Below are positions 34,395 to 62,017 of a DNA stretch of 64,000 nucleotides, one piece after another. Position 1 is the first letter of the stretch. Each line of letters begins with the position of its first letter. Below the pieces are notes generated by a model that worked only from the letters and a program-made list of their open reading frames with translations, was not told the origin of the DNA and made no database searches. Origin of the DNA: a virus; the IMG/VR virus record IMGVR_UViG_3300037264_002228, positions 34,444 to 98,443 of that record; one strand, written 5' to 3'. The position numbers and the translations under genes were made by a program.

Positions 34395-34802
34395 ATGCCA
34401 GTCGTAATACAAGTTTATTTTGGACATGAAACAGATAGAAAACATAGGATTAGTGGGCCTGCTGATAGTGACTTAATGTATGATCAAATTGCGAAGAAGC
34501 CAATATGTATACCCGATTGGCCAGATTTAGACTACGTTAGAGATGATGGTAGTTTCCCAATAACATTTATGGGTCTTCCGTTGTGGCGGCCCAAAGGCCT
34601 AGCAGTGTATCGTTGGGCCATTGATTATGTGTCTTGTAGTGATACACGATGGGTGGTTTTTGGCTCATATATGTCAGTAGTATCTGCAAAAGAAGCGATA
34701 AAACCACTATATGATTATATAAATGGATATCATATTATAAGTGAACATTGTTTTCTTGGTGAACATAAAGAACTTCCGCACGACATGTGGACAGACGGTT
34801 AA
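34395..34802 (+). CDS. Hypothetical protein
   Basis: 135 residues, unrecognised. Rich in Trp, Asp and Pro (IPDWPDLDYVRDDG; LPLWRPKGLAVYRWAI). It lacks the DPxFF motif of its neighbours but sits in the same tightly packed operon, one base after the previous stop and directly before the next ATG. Confidence 0.6.
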   Translation: MPVVIQVYFGHETDRKHRISGPADSDLMYDQIAKKPICIPDWPDLDYVRDDGSFPITFMGLPLWRPKGLAVYRWAIDYVSCSDTRWVVFGSYMSVVSAKEAIKPLYDYINGYHIISEHCFLGEHKELPHDMWTDG

Positions 34803-41972: not shown

Positions 41973-42745
41973 ATAAATTGTTATTTATTGGTGGCCCATG
42001 TGTCATAGAATCAGAACAACATGCTATGAGGCATGCATCAGCCATAAAAGATATATGTACAAAATTAGACATAGATTTTATTTATAAAAGTTCCTATGAT
42101 AAAGCTAATAGGACGTCTGGCGAAACTTATCGAGGCCCAGGTTTAATTGATGGTTTATACATATTGAATAAAATTAAACATGAAATTGGCGTTAAGATAT
42201 TGACTGATGTCCATTCTGTTGATGAAGTGAAGTCTGCTGCGGTTGTAGTTGACGTGCTTCAAATTCCAGCATTGTTATGTCGTCAGACAGATTTAGTATT
42301 GGCTGCTTCGAGTACTCACAAAATAGTAAACATCAAAAAGGGCCAATTCATGGACCCATTGGCTATGAGGCATATATTAAAGAAAGCCTTATCAACTGGT
42401 AATAATAATATATGGTTATGTGAGCGTGGTACTACGTTTGGTTATAATAATTTAGTAGTTGATATGCGTTCAATACCAATAATGAAATCTTTTGGTTGCA
42501 AAGTAATAATGGATGCTGGACATGCAGTGCAACAGCCCGGTGGTCTTGGTAATGCATCCGGTGGGATGCGAGATATGATTCCGACGATGGCTCGTTGTGG
42601 TATCGCGGCTGGTGCTGATGGGTTGTTTATTGAAGTCCATGAAAATCCAGATGCTGGCCTAAGTGATGGACCGAATATGCTTAGATTAGATGATCTTGAA
42701 TCATTACTACGCCAAGCAAAAGAAATGAAAAATTTGCTCCTGTAG
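41969..42745 (+). CDS. kdsA: 3-deoxy-D-manno-octulosonate 8-phosphate synthase
   Basis: 258 residues. Condenses phosphoenolpyruvate with arabinose 5-phosphate to KDO-8-phosphate for lipopolysaccharide inner core. Conserved segments are in order: GGPCVIESE, YKSSYDKANRTS, TDVHSVDEV, QIPALLCRQTDL, NIKKGQFMDP, CERGTTFGYNNLVVDMRS, DAGHAVQQPGG, and IEVHENPDAGLSDGPNM. Length is slightly under the usual 280. Its last three codons and TAG stop lie inside an amber-suppressor tRNA gene. The arabinose-5-phosphate isomerase that makes its substrate is encoded at 53995; kdsB and kdsC are not in the window. Confidence 0.92.
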   Translation: MNKLLFIGGPCVIESEQHAMRHASAIKDICTKLDIDFIYKSSYDKANRTSGETYRGPGLIDGLYILNKIKHEIGVKILTDVHSVDEVKSAAVVVDVLQIPALLCRQTDLVLAASSTHKIVNIKKGQFMDPLAMRHILKKALSTGNNNIWLCERGTTFGYNNLVVDMRSIPIMKSFGCKVIMDAGHAVQQPGGLGNASGGMRDMIPTMARCGIAAGADGLFIEVHENPDAGLSDGPNMLRLDDLESLLRQAKEMKNLLL

Positions 42746-42809
42746 CCTATCGGTGAGGCAGGGATCTCTAAAATCTCATAGGTGAGTTCGACTCTCATCA
42801 GGAGCGCCA
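42736..42809 (+). tRNA. Amber suppressor tRNA (anticodon CUA)
   Basis: A complete cloverleaf can be drawn: acceptor GCTCCTG/CAGGAGC, D stem GCCT/AGGC, anticodon stem GGGAT/ATCTC with loop CTCTAAA, and T stem GTGAG/CTCAT with loop TTCGACT. The discriminator is G and CCA is encoded. The anticodon is CTA (42768-42770), which reads UAG. The gene overlaps the 3' end of kdsA, whose own TAG stop lies in it. Amino-acid identity is not assignable by eye; discriminator G would fit Gln, Asn or others. Confidence 0.88.
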
Positions 42810-57342: not shown

Positions 57343-57797
57343 ATAATGGTTACAAAGATATCGTCAAATCTGTGGTCTAATGAACTCGTGTCCCTAGCGG
57401 ATACGCGGTTTAGTGGGTTGCATAATACACAGCCACAACCCACCCTCGCCGCCGCCTATAAGCGCGGTAGCGAGATCGGAGGTTTGACGGGGTAAGCTTT
57501 AAAGAAAAATTGAGATTTTAATGAGCCCCGCGCTTTCGAAGGAAGGTTGCGGGGCTCAAGCTTTATTTGGGATATGCGGGTCCCGTCGATTGGTAGCCAT
57601 CAGGTTCGCCTGGGTGCTGATCGTACTAGTGGCGTGAACAATTGTGTTCACAACAATTTGACAATTAGGTTAGAAAAGAGCAAAAGACGTAGGGAGGGCC
57701 AAGGAGTCCACCTTGGCCCTCCCTTGCGTAGGCTTAAGAAATATTTGTAATTAGCATCGGAAGCGAAAGCTAATATGCTTTGGTCGTAAGACCAATC
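57343..57797 (+). ncRNA. Large ornate structured RNA, GOLLD/ROOL-like candidate
   Basis: About 455 bases without a convincing gene but with many nested helices. CGTCAAA (57362-57368) pairs with TTTGACG (57483-57489), closing a domain. That domain contains GTGGGTTG/CAACCCAC (57413/57436) and CTCGC..CCGC/GCGG..GCGAG (57445-57474). Then GAGCCCCGC/GCGGGGCTC (57523-57557), CAGG-TTCG-CCTG, GTGAAC/GTTCAC, and a 13-pair stem (57692-57704 with 57711-57723). Finally GCAT..AGC-GAAA-GCT..ATGC and TGGTC-GTAA-GACCA, both with GNRA loops, end next to a tRNA. Size and tRNA linkage recall the phage-associated GOLLD and ROOL RNAs; I cannot confirm either class from memory. Confidence 0.65.
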
Positions 57798-57946: not shown

Positions 57947-58030
57947 GGAAGTGCTCGAAAGTGGGATTTCATGCGGACTGTAAATCCGTTGCCAAATGGC
58001 TAAGTGGTTCGATTCCTCACACTTCCACCA
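57947..58030 (+). tRNA. tRNA-Tyr (anticodon GUA)
   Basis: Acceptor GGAAGTG/CACTTCC, anticodon loop CTGTAAA, long class II variable arm as in bacterial tRNA-Tyr, discriminator A, encoded CCA. Confidence 0.92.
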
Positions 58031-58038
58031 TAAAATTA

Positions 58039-58115
58039 CAGGCACAGGGTCAGATAGCGGGCCGCCTGCCTCGGAAGCAGGAGTCAGCGCAGTGCAAGTC
58101 TGCGGTGCCTGACCA
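58039..58115 (+). tRNA. tRNA-Pro (anticodon CGG)
   Basis: Acceptor CAGGCAC/GTGCCTG, anticodon stem CCTGC/GCAGG with loop CTCGGAA, T stem CGCAG/CTGCG, encoded CCA. The T loop (TGCAAGT) departs from the usual TTCRANN. Confidence 0.87.
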
Positions 58116-58116
58116 T

Positions 58117-58194
58117 CAGGGTGTAGCTCAGATAGTGATGAGCGCATGTTTTGGATACATGAGGTCGCTGGTGCGAGTCCAGTCACCCTGACCA
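58117..58194 (+). tRNA. tRNA-Pro (anticodon UGG), copy 1
   Basis: Acceptor CAGGGTG/CACCCTG, anticodon stem CATGT/ACATG with loop TTTGGAT, encoded CCA. Confidence 0.88.
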
Positions 58195-58207
58195 TAAAAA
58201 TTAATAT

Positions 58208-58284
58208 CCGGGTGTAGCGTAGTCTGGTAACGCGTCTGCTTTGGGAGCAGAAGATCGCAGGTTCAAATCCTGTCACCTGGACCA
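58208..58284 (+). tRNA. tRNA-Pro (anticodon UGG), copy 2
   Basis: Acceptor CCGGGTG/CACCTGG, anticodon stem TCTGC/GCAGA with loop TTTGGGA, T loop TTCAAAT, encoded CCA. Sequence differs clearly from copy 1, so it is not a recent tandem duplicate. Confidence 0.9.
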
Positions 58285-58285
58285 C

Positions 58286-58360
58286 TTCGGGGTCAGCTAA
58301 TTGGTAAGCTGCTTGTCTGTTAAACAAGTCATCGGGGTTCAAGTCCCTGCCCCGGAGCCA
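58286..58360 (+). tRNA. tRNA-Asn (anticodon GUU)
   Basis: Acceptor TTCGGGG/CCCCGGA, anticodon stem CTTGT/ACAAG with loop CTGTTAA, discriminator G, encoded CCA. One base separates it from the preceding tRNA. Confidence 0.9.
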
Positions 58361-58370
58361 AAATTATCTT

Positions 58371-58454
58371 GCCCCTGTGGTGGAACAGCAGACACGATGG
58401 TCTTAGAAGCCATTGCCAATAGGCGTGGAGGTGCGACTCCTCTCAGGGGCACCA
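58371..58454 (+). tRNA. tRNA-Leu (anticodon UAG)
   Basis: Acceptor GCCCCTG/CAGGGGC, anticodon loop CTTAGAA, class II variable arm, encoded CCA. Reads CUA codons. Confidence 0.9.
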
Positions 58455-58465
58455 ATAAATAAATT

Positions 58466-58774
58466 ATGGATTTTTGTGAAATAATTTCTGAATGGCTTAA
58501 AACCAATTGCACAAATTGGCAAGTATGGTATGGGGCTTTTATTGAAATTGGATTTAAAGACAACATGAAAAGATGGACATGTATGTCACACATATATCTT
58601 ACACAAAATGAAATTCATGTATACGAGAGAATTAGACGAATTAAACAGAATGCTGTTTTAGTTCACTCACCAAATTATGCACCAGATTATTTAAAATATT
58701 CTCTCAATGCTTGTGATCCAAATTTGTTTAGTAAATTAAAAGAAATTTTAACAGAATACGAAAAGGTCCTATAG
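58466..58774 (+). CDS. DPxFF-family small protein inside the tRNA cluster
   Basis: 102 residues. MDFCEIISEWLKTNCTNWQVW is the family N-terminal helix and NACDPNLFSKLKEILTEYEK the C-terminal motif. It sits between tRNA-Leu and tRNA-Asp; its last ten bases, including the TAG stop, lie in the acceptor stem of tRNA-Asp. Processing of that tRNA would cut the mRNA's 3' end. Confidence 0.62.
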   Translation: MDFCEIISEWLKTNCTNWQVWYGAFIEIGFKDNMKRWTCMSHIYLTQNEIHVYERIRRIKQNAVLVHSPNYAPDYLKYSLNACDPNLFSKLKEILTEYEKVL

Positions 58775-58839
58775 TGTACCGGCGCGCACAACATCCTGTC
58801 ACGATGTAAGAACGGGTTCAACTCCCGTTAGGATCGCCA
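58765..58839 (+). tRNA. tRNA-Asp (anticodon GUC)
   Basis: Acceptor GGTCCTA/TAGGATC, anticodon stem ACATC/GATGT with loop CTGTCAC, discriminator G, encoded CCA. Overlaps the end of the small gene at 58466. Confidence 0.9.
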
Positions 58840-58840
58840 T

Positions 58841-58914
58841 TCTCCGGTCGTCTATTGGTAGGACGTCGCGCTTTGAACGCGGAAAGGTTGGTTCGATTCC
58901 AACTCGGAGAACCA
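58841..58914 (+). tRNA. tRNA-Gln (anticodon UUG)
   Basis: Acceptor TCTCCGG/TCGGAGA, anticodon loop CTTTGAA, T loop TTCGATT, encoded CCA. Confidence 0.88.
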
Positions 58915-58917
58915 AAT

Positions 58918-58995
58918 TGCCAAGCACTCTGTATCGGTACGGAGACGAGTCTCTGAAACTCGGCGCTGCTGGTTCGACTCCAGCCTTGGCAGCCA
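58918..58995 (+). tRNA. tRNA-Gln (anticodon CUG)
   Basis: Acceptor TGCCAAG/CTTGGCA, anticodon stem CGAGT/ACTCG with loop CTCTGAA, discriminator G, encoded CCA. Confidence 0.88.
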
Positions 58996-58996
58996 T

Positions 58997-59073
58997 GCTC
59001 TCGTGGTGCAACTGGCAGACACACTCGTCTCAGAAGCGAGGCTTTGCGGGTTCGAATCCCGCCGAGAGCACCA
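58997..59073 (+). tRNA. tRNA-Leu (anticodon CAG)
   Basis: Acceptor GCTCTCG/CGAGAGC, anticodon loop CTCAGAA, encoded CCA. The variable arm is short for a leucine tRNA (77 bases in total), unlike the other two Leu tRNAs here. Confidence 0.85.
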
Positions 59074-59081
59074 AAATTTTT

Positions 59082-59164
59082 GCATCTGTGCTGGAATCGG
59101 TATACGGGGCGGTCCGAGAAGCCGCTGCAATAGCATGTGGGTTCGAGTCCCTCCAGATGCACCA
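59082..59164 (+). tRNA. tRNA-Leu (anticodon GAG)
   Basis: Acceptor GCATCTG/CAGATGC, anticodon stem GCGGT/GCCGC with loop CCGAGAA, class II variable arm, encoded CCA. C at position 33 instead of the near-universal U is odd. Confidence 0.85.
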
Positions 59165-59180: not shown

Positions 59181-59577
59181 GTAAAGGATGCGGACAATCG
59201 CGGTCATAAGTGATCGAGGAAAGTCCCGGCTCCAAAGAGTAAGATGGTCGCTAACGGCGGCACAGCGTAAGCTGATGGAAAGTGCCACAGAGACTATTCC
59301 TGCTCAAGTCAAGTGATTGTTGTTGGCGGCGTAGCTCATGATGCCTCGCGAAAGCAGGAGGCTAGAAGTAGAAGTCAACAATTTATTGTGAGCAGCTTGA
59401 TAAGAGTAAGGGTGAAAAGAGGTAAACCCCATCTGGAGCAAGGCTAAATAGGAACACTGGGCTACTCGCTCGATAAGTGTTCGGGTAAGCTGCTTGAGGG
59501 TACCAGCAATGGTATTCCCAGATAGATGATTGTCACCCATAATATGGGTACAAAACCGGGCTTATAGCATCCTTTAC
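59181..59577 (+). ncRNA. rnpB: RNase P RNA (bacterial type A)
   Basis: Conserved regions occur in the correct order: GAGGAAAGTCC (59215-), ACAGAGA (59287-), AAGGGTGAAA (59408-), GGTAAACCCC (59421-), AGCAAGGCTAAATAGG, GGGTAAGCTGCTTGAG, AGATAGATGATTGTC, and ACAAAACCGGGCTTAT. P1 is an 11-pair helix (59181-59191 with 59567-59577). P2 is GACAATC/GATTGTC (59193/59528). P4 pairs CCCGG with CCGGG. The GGT that pairs with tRNA CCA is present. The P13/P14 arms expected between GGGTGAAA and GGTAAAC are missing, whereas P12 is well developed. About 397 bases. This is the catalytic subunit that trims tRNA 5' ends; it lies inside the tRNA cluster. Confidence 0.95.
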
Positions 59578-59585
59578 AACTTGGA

Positions 59586-59625
59586 GTGGTTGGAGGGCTA
59601 ACGCAATGTTAGTCCCTCCAACCAC
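59586..59625 (+). terminator. Strong hairpin after RNase P RNA
   Basis: A 17-pair stem (GTGGTTGGAGGG..CTAAC with GTTAG..CCCTCCAACCAC, one bulged T) and a 5-base loop separates the plus-strand RNA genes from the convergent minus-strand genes. There is no immediate U-run, so it may block or stabilise the 3' end rather than be a classic terminator. Confidence 0.6.
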
Positions 59626-59636
59626 CATGACGGGGG

Positions 59637-60071
59637 CTAATTTTCTATTTTATTTGCAATATTTTGAATTGGGTTTGGCCCACTACAAGCAGACTGTAGG
59701 ATGTTTGTTATGTTGTCAATTAACTCATCGTCAGTCATCTGTGAATGCTCGTCATATAATTTACTAAATCTCTCTGATAGAAATGGTTTAATATCGTTTT
59801 CACCATTTGGATTTATTAGTTGTATAAACCATTTCTTTGTGGTAAAATGTTTAACAACATAACAAACAAATGGGTTTCGTCCTTTGTAACCAAATTCATC
59901 GTCGTCATGTAAACCAAATGATTGGTGGTCTTCATGTTCAATAGCGATACTTGCTTTATTAGTTCCTTTTAAATGTTTTAGATCAAGTGAACGATGTTCA
60001 ATAGGTTGTCCTGCATACCAATGTGTGTACATTAATTCTATCTTTAGACATTCTGGGATTTTTTGATTCAT
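59637..60071 (-). CDS. HDDDEFG-motif protein A, minus strand
   Basis: 144 residues. SFGLHDDDEFGYKGRNPFV lies near residue 50, and the C-terminus ends PIQNIANKIEN. The neighbouring gene encodes a protein with the same layout, the same motif and a similar ending (QIQQIANKIDY), so they are tandem paralogs. Function unknown. The pair sits as a minus-strand cassette in the tRNA region. Confidence 0.62.
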   Translation of the reverse strand: MNQKIPECLKIELMYTHWYAGQPIEHRSLDLKHLKGTNKASIAIEHEDHQSFGLHDDDEFGYKGRNPFVCYVVKHFTTKKWFIQLINPNGENDIKPFLSERFSKLYDEHSQMTDDELIDNITNILQSACSGPNPIQNIANKIEN

Positions 60072-60078
60072 AAATTAA

Positions 60079-60534
60079 TCAATAATCAATTTTATTAGCA
60101 ATTTGTTGTATTTGGTTCGGTGGACACGAATTGTTTAAATAATCGACAATAGTTTGTTTAATGTTTGATGTAGATTTCTTATAAATTTTTTCTATTTCAT
60201 CTACCATTCTGTGATCTGTTTCGTTATATCGACCGCCGGTAATAACATCAAATAAAAACCAATAATCAAAAAAGACAGTCTGTTTTGTGACAAGTGGTTT
60301 CTTACTAAAATGTAATGTGATGCCAGAATTACGACCACTATTGCCAAAAGTATCGTCATCATGAAAACCAATATTTGTTATGTGATCATTATGGACGATT
60401 CTCATTGATATAATATCGATTGGACGTTCAGTATTATATGATGCATTGTCTAATATGTTGATGTCATTAGTAGTATCTACTATGTTTGTGCCATGTTTTC
60501 TAACAATTTTGATGCTGAAACAATTTGGGACCAT
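60079..60534 (-). CDS. HDDDEFG-motif protein B, minus strand
   Basis: 151 residues, paralog of the 59637 protein: NIGFHDDDTFGNSGRNSGITLHF near residue 55 and PNQIQQIANKIDY at the end, with a similar middle (FFDYWFLFDVITGG versus KWFIQLINPNGE). Located seven bases upstream of its paralog on the same strand, so a two-gene operon. Function unknown. Confidence 0.62.
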   Translation of the reverse strand: MVPNCFSIKIVRKHGTNIVDTTNDINILDNASYNTERPIDIISMRIVHNDHITNIGFHDDDTFGNSGRNSGITLHFSKKPLVTKQTVFFDYWFLFDVITGGRYNETDHRMVDEIEKIYKKSTSNIKQTIVDYLNNSCPPNQIQQIANKIDY

Positions 60535-60550
60535 AAAATATTTTCGACAC

Positions 60551-60624
60551 GCGGGTGTCGTTCAATGGTAGGACCCTAGTTTTCCAAACTAGAGATGTCG
60601 GTTCGATTCCGTCTACCCGCACCA
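60551..60624 (+). tRNA. tRNA-Gly (anticodon UCC)
   Basis: Acceptor GCGGGTG/TACCCGC, anticodon stem CTAGT/ACTAG with loop TTTCCAA, encoded CCA. Confidence 0.9.
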
Positions 60625-60625
60625 A

Positions 60626-60702
60626 GCCCCTGTCCCGTAACTGGATAACGGCCTTGCCTACGAAGCAAGTAAATATAGGTTCGAATCCTATCAGGGGTAC
60701 CA
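60626..60702 (+). tRNA. tRNA-Arg (anticodon ACG)
   Basis: Acceptor GCCCCTG/CAGGGGT, anticodon stem CTTGC/GCAAG with loop CTACGAA, T loop TTCGAAT, encoded CCA. A34 would need deamination to inosine by a TadA-type enzyme. Confidence 0.9.
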
Positions 60703-60705
60703 ACA

Positions 60706-60713
60706 GTATTTAA
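60706..60713 (+). promoter_or_regulatory. Putative late promoter element GTATTTAA
   Basis: Lies four bases after tRNA-Arg and before a strong AAGGAG ribosome site for the gene at 60733; the predicted leader is about 14 bases. Confidence 0.55.
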
Positions 60714-60732
60714 TATTATAAGGAGATTTCTT

Positions 60733-60918
60733 ATGATGTCAACTACAGAACGGGCTAAGCGTAGCCGTGCTATGAAGGCGTTTCACGCTCGTCGTCGTGA
60801 AGCTAATGAAAGTCGGTCATACACTCTACGTGACTATTGGGAGTTCAGCGAGGAAGCTATTGCACATCGTGCGAAGCTCAGCCGCGCCATGAAGCGTTGG
60901 TGGCGTGCGAATCGCTAA
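60733..60918 (+). CDS. Small basic repeat protein in the tRNA cluster
   Basis: 61 residues, very Arg/Ala-rich. Two related segments, AKRSRAMKAFHARRR and AKLSRAMKRWWRANR, are reminiscent of NUMOD3-type DNA-binding repeats found with homing endonucleases. Higher GC and different codon use from its neighbours. Well-placed SD (AAGGAG) and its own late promoter suggest strong expression of a nucleic-acid-binding protein. Confidence 0.65.
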   Translation: MMSTTERAKRSRAMKAFHARRREANESRSYTLRDYWEFSEEAIAHRAKLSRAMKRWWRANR

Positions 60919-60930
60919 GTAGTATCAAAT

Positions 60931-61001
60931 AGGTCGTTGGTGTAATGGTAACATTGCTGCCTCCAAATCAGTAGATGAAGGTTCGATTCCTTCACGGCCT
61001 G
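60931..61001 (+). tRNA. tRNA-Trp (anticodon CCA), no encoded 3' CCA
   Basis: Acceptor AGGTCGT/ACGGCCT, anticodon loop CTCCAAA, T stem GAAGG/CCTTC, discriminator G. The sequence after the discriminator is AATT, so CCA must be added by an enzyme. One pair at the base of the anticodon loop is mismatched. Confidence 0.82.
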
Positions 61002-61018
61002 AATTTTTTAGGTGATTA

Positions 61019-62017
61019 ATGAAATTATTGGTTACAGGTGGTTGTGGTTTTATTGGCTCTAATTTCATTCGATACGTACTTGGAAATCGCGATTACAGCA
61101 TTGACAATCTAGATGCTTTAACATATGCTGGAAATCCAGATAATTTAAAAGACCTTAAAGAAGATCGGTATAAATTTTACCATACTTCAATTACCAATAA
61201 AATTATGGTTGATGATTTAGTAAGTGGTGTCGATGCTGTTGTAAATTTCGCCGCAGAAAGCCATGTTGATAGAAGCCTGTTTGGTCCAGAAGAATTCATA
61301 AACACGAATGTGCTGGGTGCTTCTTATGTTCTGGAATCTGTAAAAAAACACAAAAAACGTCTAGTGCATGTTTCAACAGACGAAGTTTATGGCTCAATTG
61401 AGACTGGCATGTTTAATGAGACAATGCCACTTCATCCAAATAATCCATATTCTGTTACCAAGGCATCAGCCGACATGATGATGAAAGTTTATTTTGATAC
61501 ATTTAAAACAGATGTTGTTGTCACTCGTAGCTCAAATAATTATGGTCCTTATCAATACCCAGAAAAATTCGTCCCATTAATCATCACGAATGCTTTAGAT
61601 AACAAGCCAGTACCAGTTTATGGCAAGGGAGATCAAATTAGAGATTGGCTACATGTTACAGATAATGTTAGAGGAATCTTGTTTGCTCTAGAACATGGTA
61701 AGGCTGGTGAAGTTTATAATCTCGGCGGTAGTAATGAGCGCACTAATTTTGAAATGGTAGAGACAATATTAAAATTAATGGACAAACCATTGTCTCTTAT
61801 ACGTTTTGTAGAAGATCGCCCAAATCATGATAGAAGATACGCCATTAATCGTTCTAAAGCATTCAAAGAATTGGCGTGGGAACCACTAATTGATTTGAAT
61901 ACAGGCATTAAGGTTGTAATAGATTGGTATAAAAATAATAGTACATGGATTAGTAACGTAAAATCTAATATAGAATTAAAGAAATATTATGAACGACAAT
62001 ACGGAAAAACGCAGTAA
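61019..62017 (+). CDS. rfbB: dTDP-glucose 4,6-dehydratase
   Basis: 332 residues. Short-chain dehydrogenase fold: NAD-binding TGGCGFIGSNFIRY at the N-terminus, NFAAESHVDRS, HVSTDEVYGS, and the catalytic YxxxK in NPYSVTKASADM (about residue 140). NYGPYQYPEKFVPLII and IRDWLHVTDNVRGI follow. It makes dTDP-4-keto-6-deoxyglucose, the precursor of rhamnose and other deoxysugars. AGGTGA precedes ATG. Other rml genes are not in the window; the product could feed host O-antigen or a phage-made sugar. Confidence 0.92.
   Translation: MKLLVTGGCGFIGSNFIRYVLGNRDYSIDNLDALTYAGNPDNLKDLKEDRYKFYHTSITNKIMVDDLVSGVDAVVNFAAESHVDRSLFGPEEFINTNVLGASYVLESVKKHKKRLVHVSTDEVYGSIETGMFNETMPLHPNNPYSVTKASADMMMKVYFDTFKTDVVVTRSSNNYGPYQYPEKFVPLIITNALDNKPVPVYGKGDQIRDWLHVTDNVRGILFALEHGKAGEVYNLGGSNERTNFEMVETILKLMDKPLSLIRFVEDRPNHDRRYAINRSKAFKELAWEPLIDLNTGIKVVIDWYKNNSTWISNVKSNIELKKYYERQYGKTQ

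Follow-up and report, generated by a model that had tools for sequence, protein, structure and literature searches.

RNase P is commonly regarded as part of the cell's housekeeping, an enzyme on loan to viruses. An RNase P RNA gene (rnpB) apparently set among the tRNA genes of a virus poses the question of whether a phage may encode this RNA itself and, if so, what the RNA would be for. The locus lies in a 64,000-nt stretch of DNA (the window; positions 34,444 to 98,443 of IMG/VR record IMGVR_UViG_3300037264_002228), which belongs to a partial virus record of 98,443 bp.

Results

A full-length class A RNase P RNA in a tRNA cluster

An earlier reading of the letters without database searches (the sequence-only reading) had called the locus a class A RNase P RNA and had recommended a covariance search. 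A cmscan search of the complete window with all Rfam families gave a strong match to RF00010 (229.4 bits against a family cutoff of 100 bits; E 2.9e-73) that covered the model end to end (Table 1). Helices P1, P2 and P4, which had been described as intact, are completely paired (10, 7 and 8 pairs, respectively), and the GGU said to contact the CCA of tRNA was found in L15. The P6 pseudoknot (GAGU/ACUC), absent from the features listed by that reading, is also intact. Because P4 and P6 lie outside the nested pairs of the Rfam model, they serve as independent checks of the fold, which has an energy z of -3.6. Helices P13 and P14 are not present, leaving 42 model positions missing in the RF00010 alignment. 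This pair is a common but non-defining trait of the class A specificity domain, and since its loss is known in various bacteria (PMC8172020), the RNA is still assigned to class A. At the level of sequence, these data confirm a genuine phage-encoded class A RNase P RNA, one that is likely to act as an RNase P RNA.

The placement between tRNA-Leu and tRNA-Gly in a common orientation was likewise borne out: tRNA-Leu(gag) lies 17 nt upstream of rnpB and tRNA-Gly(tcc) 970 nt downstream, all on the + strand. The surrounding cluster comprises twelve tRNAs called by ARAGORN, with further tRNA-like stretches that the program did not call in its upstream part. The GGU contact appears well suited to this setting, as 12 of the 13 tRNAs in the window encode CCA. 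A strong hairpin directly 3' of rnpB is probably a 3'-end or terminator element. Another strong hairpin, of 14 pairs and terminator-like on the minus strand, is found ahead of the tRNA cluster at 57691-57724. The window also holds a lone tRNA at 42736-42809 with the anticodon CUA (amber), yet TAG ends 11 of the 60 listed open reading frames.

Table 1. Features of the rnpB locus, in window coordinates
Feature	Position	Strand	Details
Adenylosuccinate-lyase-like gene (phrog_1703), upstream phage flank	55880..57286	+	
Upstream tRNAs Tyr, Pro, Pro, Asn, Leu, Asp, Gln, Leu, Leu	57947..59164	+	ARAGORN; CCA encoded in all
rnpB, bacterial class A RNase P RNA, full length	59182..59580	+	RF00010 229.4 bits, model 1-367
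P1 5' strand UAAAGGAUGC	59182..59191	+	10/10 pairs with 59567-59576
P2 5' strand	59193..59199	+	7/7 pairs with 59528-59534
P4 5' strand AAG(U)CCCGG	59221..59229	+	U bulged; one pair is C-G, reversed from the G-C of sampled bacteria
P6 pseudoknot 5' strand GAGU	59237..59240	+	Complement ACUC at 59464-59467
P12 enlargement, ~84 nt	59311..59394	+	Insert in covariance alignment
P6 pseudoknot 3' strand ACUC, in L17	59464..59467	+	
GGU in L15, pairs with tRNA 3' CCA	59484..59486	+	Invariant, 15/15 aligned RNAs
P2 3' strand	59528..59534	+	Partner of 59193-59199
P4 3' strand CCGGGCUU	59556..59563	+	Compensating change; 8/8 P4 pairs
P1 3' strand GCAUCCUUUA	59567..59576	+	Partner of 59182-59191
Hairpin directly 3' of rnpB, 17 pairs, without U run	59586..59625	+	-31.8 kcal/mol, z -4.8
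Two small ORFs between rnpB and tRNA-Gly	59637-60071, 60079-60534	-	
Downstream tRNAs Gly, Arg, Trp	60551..61002	+	ARAGORN; Trp without CCA
Nucleotide-sugar epimerase (phrog_540), phage family, downstream flank	61019..62017	+	Counterpart on phage contig L256

Compensatory changes preserve the fold

The window RNA was aligned with RNAs from other viral contigs to give a set of 15, some of which may come from hosts (L147, L153, L157 and L164 being the less certain members); the clear phage members give the same covariation picture as the full set. Across the 15 RNAs, 96.5% of the cells in P1, P2 and P4 are paired, as compared to 72.7% after shuffling and at most 45% when the strands are slid by 1-3 columns, and two-sided changes occur in 17 of the 25 pairs. 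A P6 tetramer with a complement in the 3' region is kept in 14 of the 15, using nine different tetramers, whereas 2000 shuffles reach at most 10. GGU and GAGGAAAGUCC are invariant. Judged from these alignments, the fold of the phage RNase P RNAs is kept by compensatory change.

P4 also sets the window RNA apart from bacterial genes. One of its pairs is C-G in the window, with both sides changed, but G-C in each of the 37 bacterial reference genomes for which both P4 strands could be located. Since the G-C form occurs in 37 of 37 bacterial RNAs, the window rnpB is, on this comparison, not a copy of a common host gene.

The carrier is a T4-related phage

The locus is accompanied by genes for a gp23-like capsid, portal, T4-type terminase, baseplate wedge, helicase and ribonucleotide reductase (RNR). 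The capsid, terminase, portal and baseplate wedge (families phrog_138, phrog_2, phrog_213 and phrog_219) are traits of T4-related tailed phages, and the sequence-only assignment to a T4-type phage thus stands in the form of T4-related. Among deposited phages, the closest capsid matches are to the 595-kb uncultured phage LR756511 (41% identity) and to T4-like cyanophage gp23 (~29%). The phrog_1703 gene upstream of the array has relatives in 6 other phage records. The contig that matches the downstream flank, L256, is a related contig of 123 kb and the one contig with purB that a search for relatives of the array's neighbour genes turned up; no tRNAs or rnpB lie nearby. From this gene content, the window RNA is very likely of phage origin.

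Within this lineage the RNA is sporadic. It is missing from all 50 capsid relatives, most of them fragments but including partial records of 341-408 kb, from 7 further records related through capsid or purB genes (again mostly fragments), and from the 595-kb LR756511. Given these relatives without the RNA, rnpB seems dispensable or optional in the lineage, where it was probably gained late or often lost. A 395-kb relative of the window's phage carries a tmRNA gene (L181:6240-6625; tag GETNVLSLDAFRAPARIAA) near two tRNAs.

The arrangement recurs in unrelated phages

The arrangement is not unique to the window's phage, which the sequence-only reading had no means of telling. IMG/VR was scanned for sequence patterns and the candidates were scored with the covariance model, which placed RNase P RNAs inside the tRNA arrays of contigs from at least five other groups, with sizes up to 463 kb. 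These are L148 (463 kb) with L150 and L152 (155 and 100 kb); L158 and L159 (8 and 42 kb); L151, L156 and L160 (162, 190 and 31 kb); and L149 (169 kb), L154 (363 kb), L146 (171 kb) and L131 (35 kb). Terminase matches occur in the L148, L149, L154, L158, L159 and L146 records, 1 kb from the array in L159. Phage character is further indicated in L156 and L160 by a Ro60 gene of actinophage-like type, in L150 by a phage RNR, and in L146 by RNA ligase and endonuclease VII; for L151 and L131, phage status is weaker and rests on the shared layout and weaker gene evidence. Genes for Ro60/TROVE RNA-binding proteins stand near the rnpB-bearing arrays in L156, L160 and L149, and the two could possibly form an RNA-handling module.

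A second scan with a 3' motif returned mostly unrelated sequences, plus the divergent phage RNAs of L131 and L146. The former (L131:6440-6751) is a 312-nt RNA in a phage-like tRNA array that scores 71.6 bits and in which P6 was not found by a simple complement test. The latter (L146:2248-2468, in a viral record) measures 221 nt and, at 71.7 bits, falls under the Rfam cutoff; its specificity domain is almost gone, and it sits gapless between two tRNAs.

In these arrays rnpB is packed tightly against tRNAs. L148 and L150 have 6 nt between rnpB and the tRNA on each side, L158 and L159 have 4 nt on the downstream side, and L151 and L160 have 0-2 nt on either side; L154 and L156 have a gap of 0 to one of the two neighbours, while in L146 the model ends of rnpB and the tRNAs overlap slightly. 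Overall, the nearer tRNA is 0-6 nt from rnpB in nine records, and three others, the window included, have one within 120 nt. Bacterial rnpB in the reference set differs in this respect: none of 40 loci (flanks of ~1.5 kb) has a tRNA call within 120 nt and a single one has a call in its flank at all, several hundred nt away, where rnpB was located by motif in 20 of the loci and the other 20 lacked any tRNA call, except one. In three groups (L148/L150, L158/L159 and L151/L156/L160) the same tRNAs flank rnpB genes that are 76-84% identical to each other, and this constancy of the neighbours points to maintenance of rnpB in place. Because at least five other large-phage groups share the arrangement, rnpB within tRNA arrays has the look of a strategy that viruses use repeatedly, and not of an assembly accident.

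Origin of the phage RNAs

The window RNA is only 43-59% identical to the other RNAs compared. In a tree, it groups weakly (80% SH-aLRT) and on long branches with other phage RNAs that lack P13 and P14, a pattern that suggests several origins of phage RNase P RNAs in a tree too unreliable to name a donor. A search for a host-gene origin through an 18-mer of P4 pointed to no donor: the 18-mer occurs in seven GTDB genomes, in none of them as part of a class A RNase P RNA. Two of the seven hold archaeal-type RNase P RNAs (L122:1542-1927 and L124:596-901) with the P4 pair inverted as in the window. The L122 genome, labelled 'Proteobacteria bacterium Centralia_MAG_189', groups with genomes whose RNase P RNAs are archaeal-type, so the label may be wrong.

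Other sources were also set aside. Plasmid matches proved to be chromosome-like records, and INPHARED matches came either from bacterial sequence flanking an Acinetobacter prophage or from faecal clones without annotation. Many IMG/VR matches were host rnpB at prophage edges. Host-type rnpB lies near the ends of nine short predicted prophage contigs (L003, L004, L005, L019, L021, L024, L028, L031 and L033), and the integrase of an Acinetobacter prophage is close to a host rnpB region (L173); these contig ends and the integrase suggest a prophage integration site near rnpB.

Discussion

A proposed role in tRNA maturation

The RnpA family (PF00825) has no match at E 0.1 in the partial 98-kb record of the window, where the sequence-only reading had advised looking for rnpA, or in 20 other rnpB-bearing records, most of which are fragments. 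With rnpA found in none of these, the protein subunit would have to be supplied by the host. The reading favored here, at a probability of roughly two in three, is that the phage RNA would work as a ribozyme subunit with host RnpA as its protein partner, would process phage tRNA transcripts and, where spacing is near zero, would help to free itself from them. In this mechanism, rnpB would be transcribed together with the tRNA cluster, its RNA would bind host RnpA to form RNase P, and the hybrid enzyme would cut the 5' ends of the phage tRNAs, mostly CCA-encoding, as its presumed substrates; the benefit would be a raised processing capacity during infection. A limiting or shut-down host RNase P, as surmised by the sequence-only reading, may be a motive. 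Where rnpB abuts a tRNA, the cut at the 5' end of the downstream tRNA would also create the 3' end of rnpB, such that the array would be partly self-releasing. The window rnpB itself would not be released in this way by its downstream tRNA, because that tRNA is 970 nt away with a strong 17-pair hairpin between. Extended to all groups, the proposal becomes tentative and somewhat short of even odds: tRNA arrays that bear their own processing ribozyme and set it free may have evolved repeatedly in large phages, with substrates and catalytic subunit on one transcript and near-zero gaps that would let tRNA cuts also mature the RNase P RNA, down to the 221-nt version.

A job other than bulk processing of phage tRNAs, such as titrating host RnpA, replacing an RNase P disabled by a defence, or acting on a changed substrate range, is unlikely. 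It would fit the altered specificity domains (P13/P14 missing in the window, nearly the whole domain in L146) and the lack of an rnpA match in 21 rnpB-bearing records, but the catalytic core and the CCA-binding GGU are retained in 15 of 15 RNAs, the RNA is located among tRNAs, and a sponge for RnpA would have no need of GGU. Still less probable is a captured host gene that travels passively with the tRNAs and has no present function. Sporadic occurrence in the window's own lineage, the fast change of tRNA clusters and the low identity to other RNAs would agree with such a passenger, yet P1, P2, P4 and P6 show compensatory changes, core and GGU stay invariant across diverged phage RNAs, and the position is conserved in three phage groups. 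An assembly chimera or host DNA at a prophage edge, on which the sequence-only claim might have foundered, is very improbable even though the record ends only 4.4 kb past rnpB and many IMG/VR matches are of the prophage-edge kind, since the phage-family genes on both flanks of the array, including the one past its downstream end, have counterparts in other phage records, and tRNAs flank rnpB on both sides, neither an integrase nor a host gene was seen next to it, the collections searched hold no close cellular match, and unrelated phages have the same layout.

Comparison with known systems

The sequence-only reading held that RNase P RNA is rarely or never described in T4-type phages, and the searchable literature agrees: no report of one in any phage was found in full texts, mostly outside subscription journals and preprints. 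The term RNase P RNA is absent from the main text of a huge-phage survey (PMC7162821), two jumbo-phage papers (PMC7824862, PMC13282480) and an opinion article on tRNAs (PMC11025619). A viral RNase P RNA among its would-be tRNA substrates suggests that phages can seize tRNA maturation in addition to tRNA supply. Phage rnpB offers a new test of the reasons for phage tRNAs, and the RNAs provide naturally diverged, very small material for studies of ribozyme requirements.

Relative to bacterial class A RNase P RNA (RF00010, E. coli M1 RNA), the window RNA shares the whole model, P1, P2, P4, P6, GGU and the conserved core, but is virus-encoded, lies in a tRNA cluster, lacks P13/P14, and has a large P12 and an inverted P4 pair. 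The nearest precedent is a pair of supernumerary RNase P RNAs in Mycobacterium austroafricanum and M. sp. YC-RL4, for which horizontal transfer is suspected (PMC9569102). Here too the RNase P RNAs are surplus copies and the specificity domain of one is altered, but the account drawn on annotates them in bacterial genomes, without assigning them to a phage or to a tRNA array. Phage and mobile tmRNA, GOLLD RNA and theta ribozymes (PMC9569102, PMC6582537, PMC10879173) are likewise noncoding RNAs that phage or mobile tRNA arrays carry and that are connected with translation or with the processing of tRNAs, although they are different RNAs, and theta ribozymes cleave themselves whereas RNase P works in trans on tRNA 5' ends. 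Phage T4, which relies on host RNase P to process its tRNA precursors (PMC11143913), resembles the window's T4-related phage in having clustered tRNAs with 5' ends expected from RNase P. The two differ in that most window tRNAs encode CCA and, above all, in the source of the RNA subunit: T4 uses that of its host, while the window's phage encodes one.
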